Assembly: GCA_022562795.1 (NCBI GenBank)
Contig: JADFOP010000001.1
Coordinates: forward strand, 84,691-128,070
Source: Nitrospinota bacterium
GTDB lineage: Bacteria; JADFOP01
Length of the DNA stretch: 43,380 nucleotides
Direction of reading: 5' to 3'
This document shows, piece after piece, positions 7,849 through 26,636 of this stretch. The position numbers and the translations under genes are program-made. A model generated the notes under the pieces. The model did no database searches. It saw nothing but the letters and a program-made list of their open reading frames with translations, and was not told the origin of the DNA. Each line of letters begins with the position of its first letter. The first letter of the stretch is position 1.

Positions 7849-8697
7849 TTAAACTTTGGCCTTGGCCCGCCGGGTCGCCTTGAGGCTCTTGCGGACCATA
7901 ACGTAACCACCATTGGGACCGGGCACGGCCCCACGGACCATCAGTAGGTTTTTCTCCGGGACGACCCGCACCACCTTAAGATTCTGGACAGTCACGCGGG
8001 AGTTGCCCATCTGGCCCGGCATCTTAGTGCCTTTGAAGACCCGCGATGGATCGGAAGCCGCACCGATTGAGCCTCCGTGGCGAAAGTGCTCATGGGTCCC
8101 GTGGGTGGCCTTTGCCCCTTTGAATCCGTGCCGTTTCATCACCCCGGAGAAGCCTTTACCCTTGGAAATACCGATGACATCAACCAGTTCGTCAGCATCA
8201 AAAGCCTCACAGGTTACGATGCCACCCGGGGCGGCATCCGGCAGAGGCTCCTCCAGACGTATCTCGCGAAGCAGGCGGGTGGGCTCGACGCCGTGAGCGG
8301 TGAAGTGGCCCTTTCTGGGCATGGAAACCAGCTTTGGTCGAACGTCCCCAAAGCCCAACTGGAGGGCGTCGTAGCCGTCCCGCTCGCGGGTCTTTACCTG
8401 GACCACCACGCAAGGGCCGGCCTCAATAATGGTCACCGGCAACCGGTTGCCGTCGGCGGAAAAAATCTGGGTCATCCCCACCTTCCTGCCCAGAATTCCC
8501 GGGGCGGCCACGAAAGCATCCTCCGGCTCAGCGGGGGGCGGCTCGTCTTCGGGGACTTCCACCTCCTCTTCGGCATCGGCCTTCACTTCGGTTTCAGCTT
8601 CGGCATCGGCCTTCACTTCGGTTTCAGCTTCGGCATCGGCCTTCGCCTCGGTTTCAGCTTCGGCCTCGGGGGCCTCTTGACCCTTCTCTTCGCTCAC
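7849..8697 (-). CDS. rplC: 50S ribosomal protein L3 with acidic repeat extension
   Basis: L3 is an early assembly protein that reaches the peptidyl transferase centre. From residue about 67 the protein is a normal L3 (PGILGRKVGMTQIF, GKGFSGVMKRHGFKG, ATHGTHEHFRHGGSIGA, then the GTKMPGQMGN loop). It is preceded by about 66 residues made almost only of Ala, Glu, Asp, Thr, Val and Pro, including repeats of ADAEAETEVK, giving 282 aa against the usual 205-220. The GTG at 8697 has AAGGA 8 bases upstream and lies 11 bases after rpsJ. A second GTG at 8511, with GGAGG 8 bases upstream, would give a normal-length 220-aa L3. The core identity is certain; which start is used is not. Confidence 0.95.
   Translation of the reverse strand: MSEEKGQEAPEAEAETEAKADAEAETEVKADAEAETEVKADAEEEVEVPEDEPPPAEPEDAFVAAPGILGRKVGMTQIFSADGNRLPVTIIEAGPCVVVQVKTRERDGYDALQLGFGDVRPKLVSMPRKGHFTAHGVEPTRLLREIRLEEPLPDAAPGGIVTCEAFDADELVDVIGISKGKGFSGVMKRHGFKGAKATHGTHEHFRHGGSIGAASDPSRVFKGTKMPGQMGNSRVTVQNLKVVRVVPEKNLLMVRGAVPGPNGGYVMVRKSLKATRRAKAKV
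8581..8670 (-). repeat. 30-bp tandem repeat inside rplC
   Basis: Two perfect 30-base copies lie at 8581-8610 and 8611-8640. A third, diverged copy lies at 8641-8670, and the last 20 bases of a unit precede them at 8561-8580. The unit is ten codons, so the repeats stay in frame and encode ADAEAETEVK-type acidic decapeptides in the L3 extension. Perfect identity suggests recent slippage or unequal exchange. Confidence 0.95.
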
Positions 8698-9038: not shown

Positions 9039-10259
9039 CCCGGTTTTTTACTCTAGGATTTTGGATATGACGCCGGCGCCGACGGTCCGGCCGCCCTCTC
9101 GGATGGCGAACCTCAGGCCCTCCTCCATGGCGATGGGCGTTATCAGCTCACCCACCACAGAGACGTTGTCGCCCGGCATCACCATCTCGACACCCTCGGG
9201 CAACTTAACAATGCCCGTTACGTCGGTCGTTCGAAAGTAAAACTGCGGGCGGTACCCGCTGAAGAAAGGCGTGTGACGCCCCCCCTCCTCCTTCGTCAAG
9301 ACGTAGATCTCGCCGGAGAAATGCGTGTGGGGTTTGATCGAGCCGGGAGCGCTCACGACCTGGCCGCGCTCCACATCCTCGCGCTTAAGCCCGCGCAGCA
9401 ATACACCGATGTTGTCTCCCGCCTCGCCGCGGTCGAGAAGCTTGCGGAACATCTCGACACCCGTGGCCACGGTCTTGACCGTCTCTTTGAGACCAACGAT
9501 CTCCACCTCATCGCCGACGGTCACCACGCCGCGGTCCACACGACCCGTCGCAACCGTCCCGCGCCCGGAGATAGAGAAGACATCCTCGACGGGCATCAAA
9601 AACGGCTTGTCCACGTCCCGCTCCGGAACGGGAATGTAGGTGTCGATCGCATCGAGCAGCTCAAAGATGCTCGCACAGTCCGGGTCCTCCGGGTCTCCGC
9701 TCTCAAGAGCCTTCAGCGCGCTGCCCGGGATCACCGGTATATCGTCGCCAGGAAAATCATACTGGCTCAACAGCTCGCGGATCTCGAGCTCCACCAACTC
9801 CACCAACTCCGGGTCGTCAACCTGGTCGACCTTGTTCAGGTAGACCACCAACGACGGCACCCCAACCTGGCGGGCCAAAAGAATGTGCTCGCGTGTCTGA
9901 GGCATCGGCCCGTCAGAGGCGCTCACCACGACGACCGCACCATCCATCTGAGCCGCCCCCGTAATCATGTTCTTTACGTAGTCGGCGTGACCAGGACAAT
10001 CCACATGGGCGTAGTGGCGAGTCTCGGTCTCATACTCCACGTGGGCCGTCGCAATCGTGATGCCACGCTCGCGCTCCTCGGGAGCCTTATCAATCTCGTC
10101 GAACGAAACGTAGGAGGCCAGACCCTTCTTCTCAAGCAACAGCGTAATGGCCGCCGTCAACGTCGTCTTGCCGTGGTCGACGTGCCCAATGGTCCCCACG
10201 TTCACGTGGGGCTTCGTCCTTACAAACTTCTCCTTCGCCATTCGACGACCTCCTCAGCG
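9039..10259 (-). repeat. Long direct repeat, tuf copy 1
   Basis: This segment is collinear, with no gaps, with 25416-26636 (offset 16377). It includes the whole tuf gene, 9 bases past its stop and the shared ribosome binding site before its start; beyond these points the flanks are unrelated. By eye there are about 25 mismatches in the coding region. All but one lie in 9048-9728, leaving a nearly identical block over 9729-10241. Confidence 0.95.
9048..10241 (-). CDS. tuf: Elongation factor Tu, copy 1
   Basis: EF-Tu delivers aminoacyl-tRNA to the ribosome as a GTP complex. The 397 aa show GHVDHGKT (19-26), RGITI (59-63), DCPGH (81-85) and NKVD (136-139), then domains 2 and 3 ending [13 protein letters not shown]. 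The SD GAGGAGGT is 6 bases before the ATG. Compared with copy 2 there are five amino-acid differences: here Pro172, Thr201, Ile312, Val363 and Ser393. Most EF-Tu proteins have a basic residue at the Pro172 position, so this copy looks the more diverged. It occupies the str operon position after fusA. Confidence 0.98.
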
Positions 10260-13466: not shown

Positions 13467-17627
<4,161 letters not shown>

Positions 17628-24012: not shown

Positions 24013-24867
24013 TCAGACCTTCTCCACCTGGAGGAACTCCATCTCGACCGGTGTGGCCCTCCCAAAGATGGTCACCATGACCCGTAGCTTGGCTCGAACG
24101 TCGTCCACCTCCTCGATCATCCCCGTAAAGTTGGTAAATGGCCCATCTACTATACGGACGTTCTCTCCTCGCTCGAACAACACCTTGAGCTTAGGTTTTT
24201 CGGCCTCGCCCCGCATCTGCTCGACGATGAACCTGATCTCATCGGTGGCCAGCGGCGTGGGATTCCGCCCTCCTCCAAGAATGCCGGTTACCTTGGGGGT
24301 GTTTTTTATTAGGTACCAGGTGTCGTCGGATAGCTCCATTTCCACCAAGACATAGCCGGGGAAGAACTTCCGGTCGCTAATACGCTTCTTGCCTCCCTTC
24401 ATCTCCACAACCGGCTCTGAAGGCACTATAATTTGAGGAATCCATTCTCTCAGGCCAAGGGCGTTGATCCGCTCTTCCATGCTCGCTTTGACCTTGGCCT
24501 CGTAGCCAGAGTAGGTATGAACAACATACCAGTCTTTGCCTGGGCCCGATGAGAGTACGGGTCCGCCGAGGGTGACCTCCGCTTCTTCCAAAGCTTCCTC
24601 TTGGTCCTCCTCCACCGGGGCTTCTACCGCTTCTTCCAAAGCTTCCTCTTGGTCCATCTCAGCCGAGACTTCTAGCGCCTCTTCCACGGCTTCCTCTTGG
24701 TCCTCCTCAACCTGAGCTACTACGGCAACCTCCTCGAGGTGGGAGTCTTCAGGAGCAAGCTCGTGAGGCGTGTCGGAGGCGACCTCCTCCGCCCAATCCT
24801 TGGAGTCGTCTTCCGCCTCGCCCTCTCGGTCGGCCTCGTCCGTCAAGCTGATCTCTTTCTCACTCAC
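24013..24867 (-). CDS. nusG: Transcription factor NusG with long acidic N-terminal extension
   Basis: NusG binds RNA polymerase through its NGN domain and contacts S10 or Rho through its KOW domain. The NGN domain starts near residue 111 (KDWYVVHTYSGYEAKVKASM) and includes RKFFPGYVLVEME. The KOW domain is GENVRIVDGPFTNFTGMIEE, and the protein ends VEMEFLQVEKV. It is preceded by about 110 residues rich in Glu, Asp, Ala and Val, so the total is 284 aa against about 175-185 usually. Part of this extension is three 16-residue repeats. The start is GTG in a GTGA overlap with the secE stop, which supports translation from there. Confidence 0.96.
   Translation of the reverse strand: MSEKEISLTDEADREGEAEDDSKDWAEEVASDTPHELAPEDSHLEEVAVVAQVEEDQEEAVEEALEVSAEMDQEEALEEAVEAPVEEDQEEALEEAEVTLGGPVLSSGPGKDWYVVHTYSGYEAKVKASMEERINALGLREWIPQIIVPSEPVVEMKGGKKRISDRKFFPGYVLVEMELSDDTWYLIKNTPKVTGILGGGRNPTPLATDEIRFIVEQMRGEAEKPKLKVLFERGENVRIVDGPFTNFTGMIEEVDDVRAKLRVMVTIFGRATPVEMEFLQVEKV
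24581..24724 (-). repeat. 48-bp tandem repeat inside nusG
   Basis: Three consecutive 48-base units (24581-24628, 24629-24676, 24677-24724) keep the reading frame and each encode 16 acidic residues containing DQEEALEEA or DQEEAVEEA. The first two share a long identical left half; the third is more diverged. They form the central and distal part of the NusG N-terminal extension. Confidence 0.92.
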
Positions 24868-25058
24868 CGTAGAACATTTCCTATAATCCGTTGAAGACCC
24901 GCATCAACCACACCTAGGAAGATCGCCACGAGAATAACAGTTAGGATCACCAAGGCGGTATGGGCGATGGTCTCTTTCCGGGTTGGCCATGTAACCTTCT
25001 TGACCTCTACAAGTACCTCGTTGAGAAACTGGCGAGCGCGCCTCACCCACTCGTTCAT
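24864..25058 (-). CDS. secE: Preprotein translocase subunit SecE
   Basis: SecE is the essential clamp of the SecYEG channel in the inner membrane. This is the short, single-span form: 64 aa with the conserved amphipathic segment FLNEVLVEVKKVTWPTRKET followed by one hydrophobic helix (about residues 34-54). It overlaps the nusG start by 4 bases. The secE-nusG-rplK order is near universal. Confidence 0.96.
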   Translation of the reverse strand: MNEWVRRARQFLNEVLVEVKKVTWPTRKETIAHTALVILTVILVAIFLGVVDAGLQRIIGNVLR

Positions 25059-25415: not shown

Positions 25416-26636
25416 CCCGGTTTTTTACTCTAGGATTTTGGCTATGACGCCGGCGCCGACGGTCCGGCCGCCCTCTCGGATGGCGAACCTCAGGCCCTCT
25501 TCCATGGCGATGGGCGTTATCAGCTCGCCCTCCACAGAGACGTTGTCGCCCGGCATCACCATCTCAACACCCTCTGGCAACTTAACGATACCCGTTACGT
25601 CGGTCGTTCGAAAATAGAACTGCGGGCGATACCCGCTGAAGAAAGGCGTGTGACGCCCCCCCTCCTCCTTCGTCAAGACGTAGACCTCGCCGGAGAAATG
25701 CGTGTGGGGCTTGATCGAGCCGGGAGCGCTCACGACCTGGCCGCGCTCCACATCCTCGCGCTTAAGCCCGCGCAGCAATACACCGATGTTGTCTCCGGCC
25801 TCGCCGCGGTCGAGAAGCTTGCGGAACATCTCGACACCCGTGGCCACAGTCTTGACCGTCTCTTTGAGACCCACGATCTCCACCTCATCGCCGACGGTCA
25901 CCACGCCACGGTCCACACGACCCGTCGCAACCGTCCCGCGACCAGAGATAGAGAAGACATCCTCGACGGGCATCAAAAACGGCTTGTCCACGTCCCGCTC
26001 CGGCACGGGAATGTAGCTGTCGATCGCATCGAGCAGCTCAAAGATGCTCGCACAGTCCGGGTCCTCCGGATCTCCGCTCTCAAGAGCCTTCAGCGCGCTG
26101 CCCTTGATCACCGGTATATCGTCGCCAGGAAAATCATACTGGCTCAACAGCTCGCGGATCTCGAGCTCCACCAACTCCACCAACTCCGGGTCGTCAACCT
26201 GGTCGACCTTGTTCAGGTAGACCACCAACGACGGCACCCCAACCTGGCGGGCCAAAAGAATGTGCTCGCGTGTCTGAGGCATCGGCCCGTCAGAGGCGCT
26301 CACCACGACGACCGCACCATCCATCTGAGCCGCCCCCGTAATCATGTTCTTTACGTAGTCGGCGTGACCAGGACAATCCACATGGGCGTAGTGGCGAGTC
26401 TCGGTCTCATACTCCACGTGGGCCGTCGCAATCGTGATGCCACGCTCGCGCTCCTCGGGGGCCTTATCAATCTCGTCGAACGAAACGTAGGAGGCCAGAC
26501 CCTTCTTCTCAAGCAACAGCGTAATGGCCGCCGTCAACGTCGTCTTGCCGTGGTCGACGTGCCCAATGGTCCCCACGTTCACGTGGGGCTTCGTCCTTAC
26601 AAACTTCTCCTTCGCCATACGACGACCTCCTCAGCG
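25416..26636 (-). repeat. Long direct repeat, tuf copy 2
   Basis: This is the partner of 9039-10259 in the same orientation, about 1.22 kb long, with the copies starting 16.4 kb apart. The unit is exactly the tuf gene plus 17-18 bases at the start side and 9 at the stop side. There are no terminal inverted repeats or target duplications, so this is a gene duplication kept alike by conversion and not a mobile element. Confidence 0.95.
25425..26618 (-). CDS. tuf: Elongation factor Tu, copy 2
   Basis: Second EF-Tu gene, 397 aa, with the same GTP-binding motifs as copy 1. It carries Lys172, Ser201, Val312, Glu363 and Ala393, of which Lys172, Ser201, Val312 and Ala393 look closer to the family consensus. 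It sits immediately downstream of four tRNA genes, the position of tufB in E. coli, and upstream of rpmG. The start has the same GAGGAGGT binding site as copy 1. Co-transcription with the tRNAs from the promoter at 27243-27271 is likely. Confidence 0.98.

Follow-up and report, generated by a model that had tools for sequence, protein, structure and literature searches.

An acidic N-terminal arm predicted on the NusG of a Nitrospinota bacterium, and acidic tails on other expression proteins of its genus

The NusG encoded by a Nitrospinota bacterium (assembly GCA_022562795.1, here G000) is of the ordinary kind except for an acidic arm specific to the lineage, and it belongs to a genus in which other proteins of gene expression also carry acidic tails. 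The gene was analysed within a window of 43,380 nucleotides (contig JADFOP010000001.1, positions 84,691 to 128,070), which comprises a bacterial cluster of ribosomal-protein and RNA polymerase genes. The arm lies in an open frame, is highly charged, contains repeats, is paralleled by tails on other proteins and is absent from the class-mate G002. The reading that we favour, tentatively and with slightly less than even confidence, is that the arm is translated, that it constitutes a disordered polyanion, and that it represents one case of genus-level acidic tails with an electrostatic role.

The nusG locus and its acidic arm

Gene names were assigned by sequence and, in the case of secE, also by place. 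The nusG gene (24013-24867, minus strand; 284 codons and a stop) opens with a GTG, its frame running from 24867 down to 24013, and the minus-strand order secE (24864-25058), nusG, L11 (23572-23997), L1, L10 and onward to rpoB/rpoC places it after secE and before L11, as is the case for canonical bacterial NusG. The window additionally carries two nearly identical tuf genes (9048-10241 and 25425-26618, both on the minus strand). The encoded protein shares with canonical NusG the Pfam NusG and KOW matches as well as the gene place, and differs from it by the 110-residue acidic arm (residues 1-110; 24538-24867, minus strand), which lies directly before the NGN domain.

A preliminary description of this DNA had proposed that 110 acidic residues precede NGN, that they include three 16-residue repeats derived from 48-bp units, and that the secE stop overlaps the first nusG start, and all three points were borne out. 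The NGN domain starts at residue 111 (residues 111-213; 24229-24537, minus strand; PF02357, 102 bits), while residues 1-108 contain 42 D/E (32 Glu and 10 Asp) and three K/R, giving a net charge of -39 and a calculated pI of 4.05; the protein outside the arm has a net charge of -1. The repeats are imperfect and occupy 24579-24723 on the minus strand (TRF: period 48, 3.0 copies, 80% matches), the copies reading VVAQVEEDQEEAVEEA, LEVSAEMDQEEALEEA and VEAPVEEDQEEALEEA. The best 96-nt self-match of the arm is 81%, a value reached by none of 2000 codon shuffles (maximum 64%). The secE/nusG overlap is GTGA, in which the TGA ends secE and the GTG starts nusG.

With respect to the start of translation, the nusG frame is open throughout the arm, while stops interrupt the two alternative frames on that strand six and four times, and the third-position GC content of the arm (0.67) is close to that of the core (0.69). 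Further in-frame ATG, GTG or TTG codons occur within the arm at codons 8, 61, 71, 77, 85 and 93; those inside the repeat region are GTG or TTG at 61, 77, 85 and 93 and ATG at 71. The Shine-Dalgarno-like duplex is stronger before codons 61 and 93 (-9.8) than before the first GTG (-4.2), a consequence of the Glu codons of the arm reading GAGGA. Because the frame is open, the third-position GC content is core-like and the secE stop overlaps the upstream GTG, translation from the first GTG is favoured, and nusG is likely to be translated from position 24867 with the full arm included.

The arm is predicted to be disordered: in an AlphaFold model based on an alignment of 14 NusGs, block pLDDT values are 40-60 in the arm and mostly 79-95 in the body, and the sole helix predicted in the arm is short (residues 58-66). 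The NGN domain is predicted with high confidence, and a single KOW match follows it (residues 234-264; 24076-24168, minus strand; PF00467, 30 bits). The only strongly basic stretch of the body is KGGKKRISDRK (residues 157-167; 24367-24399, minus strand), which is a possible inner partner of the arm. The best Foldseek matches of the predicted structure are NusG, RfaH and Spt5 structures, and several solved NusG chains in the list are 47-49% identical to this protein. The NusG of Mycobacterium tuberculosis (8e74, 8eos) is likewise long, with 238 residues, but has a shorter leader: residues 84-284 of the present protein align to its residues 20-238, and the structural chains hold 122-124 residues, the rest being probably unresolved. 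The insert found inside NGN in Aquifex-type NusG is not present here, and the distance from the NGN tryptophan to the C-terminus (172 residues) is that of most NusGs read.

Acidic tails on L3 and other expression proteins

A sister case is provided by ribosomal protein L3 in the same window (rplC; 7849-8697, minus strand), which has its own acidic N-terminal arm (residues 1-66; 8500-8697, minus strand) containing 30-bp tandem repeats (8568-8669, minus strand; 3.4 copies, 95% matches). In the genus-mate G001 the L3 arm is encoded from the same GTG start, this codon being of the same kind, located just after the preceding gene and preceded by purine-rich sequence. The G001 leader is 84 residues long with a net charge of -30 and is alignable to the L3 arm of the window, without the 30-bp repeats, and the gaps within that alignment (27, 24 and 3 bases) are all multiples of three. 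Furthermore, beyond codon 47 the G001 gene has no further start codon before the core, which follows residue 84. On these comparisons the L3 arm is better proved than the NusG arm. Acidic L3 arms were found in two of the 34 genomes read, both of the window's genus; the arm is absent from the class-mate G002, from G033 and from all 30 further genomes (32/32).

The extent of such charge across the genome was assessed over 1,871,470 bases (87%) of the window's genome, from which 1756 ORFs of at least 90 residues were chosen by length, with little overlap. NusG leads the list (-23) and L3 comes third (-20) when the ORFs are ranked by their most acidic 50-residue window; ranking by the charge of the first 70 residues puts NusG first and L3 second. 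Thirteen of the ORFs contain a 50-residue window of -16 or lower, and seven of these are NusG, L3, NusA, L25, RpoC, S2 and S1; the remaining six are sigma-54, a TPR protein, a DUF1844 protein, a response-regulator protein and two ORFs without a Pfam match. The enrichment of the expression machinery (7/13) gives a P of about 1e-7 on the assumption of 64 ribosomal or polymerase-related proteins among the 1756, for a class that was picked after the list had been seen. Acidic tails of L25, sigma-54 and NusA occur in other bacteria. The RpoC tail (13470-13610, minus strand; gene named by sequence and by its place beside rpoB) is C-terminal and has a 50-residue window of -17.

Comparison with other genomes indicated that strong acidity of NusA and S2 is common to both members of the genus, is weaker in G002, and is in between in G232. 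The most acidic 50-residue window of NusA is -19 in G000 and -16 in G001, compared with -5 in G002, -10 in G033, -7 in G139 and -12 in G232, the corresponding values for S2 being -17, -20, -9, -8, -6 and -13. As G232, which lacks a NusG arm, has fairly acidic stretches in S2 (-13) and S1 (-14), acidic tails are not confined to the window's genus. In G001 no complete S1 could be found.

Several other unusual ORFs were observed in these genomes. The L7/L12 gene of G002 (L097:2462-2950) appears to encode, ahead of the normal N-terminus, an extended leader of about 35 residues rich in Lys and Glu. Two related-looking ORFs of the window's genome (G000:C18:32230-33123 and G000:C11:25269-26222), the first of which is without a Pfam match, contain acidic segments that recur along the sequence, as well as a signal-like stretch close to the N-terminus. 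A 729-residue ORF (G000:C4:23837-26026, L157:3837-6026, plus strand) combines a response-regulator receiver, a sigma-54 activator domain and an LpxC domain and, if it is not an assembly error, would be an NtrC-like regulator fused to a lipid A enzyme.

NusG arms among relatives and across bacteria

The NusG of the class-mate G002 is a 182-residue frame that starts just after secE and lacks the arm, and that of G033 has 176 residues. Among the matches listed, the NusGs of G232 and G096, whose cores are 64-65% identical to that of the window, start four residues before the NGN tryptophan. No nusG match was obtained in the genus-mate G001, the assembly of which is 85% complete, and for this reason the NusG arm itself is seen in one genome. 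The nearest named NusGs are mostly from Acidobacteriota (up to 60% identical), and the window's class is represented in the searched sets by just two further genomes.

A wider survey of N-terminal lengths was performed on 118 of 120 NusG loci, comprising 30 from the best matches, 50 named loci and 40 picked for long frames, and a leader was scored as an acidic arm when it had at least 45 residues from the start codon to the NGN tryptophan, a net charge of -8 or lower and 22% D/E. Acidic arms were present in 20 of the 118 loci, the window's own included, with 40 loci picked for long frames; as the survey was drawn among the matches listed, it shows recurrence and not frequency. In the less selected sets an arm was present in three of the 29 loci read among the 30 best (the window's own included) and in two of the 49 read among the 50 named. 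Among the 20 scored arms, that of L219 looks like an ordinary short domain and is not of low complexity, and that of L223 was measured from an over-long start. Many long leader frames (e.g. L212, L220 and L230) were rejected as arms, being readthrough of unrelated sequence that is not acidic.

A quick maximum-likelihood tree of 117 different NusG cores required at least 13 changes of arm state, with many weak inner branches and some long-branched arm rows. Families f26 and f100 carry an acidic arm in all three members sampled of each, and named examples include two Acidobacteriota contigs (L050 and L052). The arms of L050, L052, f26 and f100 resemble that of the window in being acidic, of low complexity and directly before NGN (59-189 residues as scored), while showing by eye no sequence kinship to it and being scattered on the NusG tree; equally, no conserved motif was seen by eye across the bacterial arms read. 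The cores of arm-bearing NusGs are slightly more basic than those of armless ones (median charge 0 versus -2; P 0.015, for rows that are not independent). These comparisons indicate that acidic arms before NGN are recurrent across several bacterial lineages. The expectation of the preliminary description that NGN lies near the start of NusG holds for most loci, but given this recurrence the present arm is not a lone oddity, and a novelty restricted to NusG was rejected since acidic arms are also found on other NusGs and on L3. A general link between NusG and L3 arms was likewise rejected, as none of the 30 further genomes has an acidic L3 arm; 15 of these had been chosen as arm-bearing, on the basis of a long NusG leader, and the other half as lacking one, and one of the 15, G070 (49 residues, net -6), later failed the arm rule.

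Streptomyces NusG, at about 300 residues with an acidic leader, would be an already known instance of such an arm. Among the open-licence papers listed, none was recognised as treating acidic arms of bacterial NusG, and the portions available of PMC3382729, PMC10990936 and PMC7593976 contain nothing on them. A second NusG-family domain occurs elsewhere in the window's genome, where a 349-residue ORF (G000:C20, L128:10322-11371, minus strand) that adjoins a miaA-like gene (named by sequence) combines a shikimate kinase (Pfam SKI) with such a domain. The fusion is also open in G002 (C26:16704-17723, 49% identity over query residues 1-348), while in G033 the matches to the two parts are at separate places.

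Possible origin and role of the arm

According to the reading that we favour, translation from the GTG at 24867 would place a disordered polyanion of 110 residues before an ordinary NGN-KOW body, the arm having grown in part by in-frame 48-bp duplication, within a tendency of the genus to carry acidic tails on proteins of transcription and translation (L3, NusA and S2, perhaps RpoC and S1). The action of the arm may depend on charge and length and not on sequence, which would be the simplest functional reading since it is charge and place, not sequence, that are kept between lineages. On free NusG it could transiently cover a basic surface such as residues 157-167 and compete with stray nucleic acid; on RNA polymerase it might be displaced, extend beside the upstream DNA and keep the factor soluble and selective. 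The preliminary description had suggested that the arm tunes contacts with RNA polymerase, Rho or S10, or mimics nucleic acid. The former idea is weakened because the tails of L3, NusA and S2 are also strongly acidic, suggesting a cause that is not limited to NusG; for the latter, the acidic C-terminus of Hfq is a precedent from bacteria, its tip masking the protein's own basic surface and competing with nucleic acid in E. coli (PMC5606850, as excerpted). The C-terminal domain of Hfq is similarly a disordered acidic tail on a protein of the bacterial RNA machinery, but it is C-terminal, is acidic only at its tip and belongs to a core with basic residues to which the tip binds (same excerpt). 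Additionally, DNA-binding proteins that carry D/E repeats can find their targets faster in the presence of decoys, according to the accessible part of PMC10250230. A point against masking is that the NusG core is not basic (net -1), so that there is little for the arm to mask.

A serious rival, in our estimation less probable, is neutral or nearly neutral growth, whereby slippage lengthens GAG/GAA-rich repeats at protein ends that tolerate it and the translated arm is invisible to selection. Such growth would fit the presence of repeats in both the NusG and the L3 arm, the absence of the NusG arm from G002 and from the nearest other NusGs, and the high share of replacements among the codon differences between NusG repeat copies (7/9, 5/5 and 3/7 in the three pairs); moreover, the 30-bp L3 repeats as such are missing from G001, from which it follows that repeat detail turns over fast. 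It accords less well with the persistence of acidity and rough length of the L3 arm in G001 despite sequence divergence, with the acidic tails on several machine proteins of the one genus, and with the consistent NusG arms of f26 and f100. Translation from an internal start at codon 85 or 93, which would leave the upstream open frame as an untranslated or rarely translated leader, is in our view very unlikely, even though the NGN tryptophan follows 28 codons after GTG85 and 20 after TTG93, a GAGGA stands at a suitable distance before TTG93, and NusG is short in G002 and G033. Some 250-280 bases between secE and nusG would then have to stay open in exactly the nusG frame, with coding-like third-position GC and a secE stop overlapping the upstream GTG, and the parallel L3 arm of G001 would not be accounted for. 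The preliminary description had named an internal start and the absence of the arm from relatives as the observations that would overturn its account; of these two, it is the absence that was observed, for G002 and the nearest other NusGs.

Eukaryotic Spt5 offers a further comparison, since Spt5N is acidic, largely unstructured and immediately before NGN, as is the arm described here; Spt5 is described as unique in this acidic tail, which binds histones H3-H4, and it differs from the present protein in the conserved H3-H4-binding motif of Spt5N and in its several KOW domains, NusG here having one (PMC8886531, in the sections available). A review likewise gives the acidic region for eukaryotic Spt5 only (PMC7819879, in part). 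By analogy, the NGN-tethered arm near the upstream DNA might hold a putative basic partner, for instance an HU-like protein of the nucleoid or one of the ribosome, at the elongating polymerase. The shared place and the shared acidic, predicted disordered character are consistent with such a binding arm (PMC8886531, same sections), and the genome does encode an HU-like protein (L128:12468-12848, identified from its sequence alone). However, the lack of a motif conserved across the bacterial arms, as judged by eye, and the acidic tails on L3, NusA and S2, which misfit a polymerase-only role, make this improbable. A broader version, in which the tails of NusG, NusA, L3 and S2 would form an electrostatic coat of a coupled transcription-translation machine, with the NusG arm as a repeatedly evolved bacterial counterpart of Spt5N that handles basic nucleoid or ribosomal proteins near the moving polymerase, is regarded as slightly more doubtful again.

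The bacterial examples indicate that the layout of Spt5N, though not its motif, can arise without histones, and the recurrence of such arms in bacterial NusG thus provides a way of testing whether Spt5N started out as a general device of charge. The tails of L3, NusA and S2 in a single genus constitute a natural case for asking what the expression machine gains from polyanionic tails. Should the growth of the arm prove to be neutral, it would instead illustrate cleanly how slippage can lengthen the ends of essential proteins.
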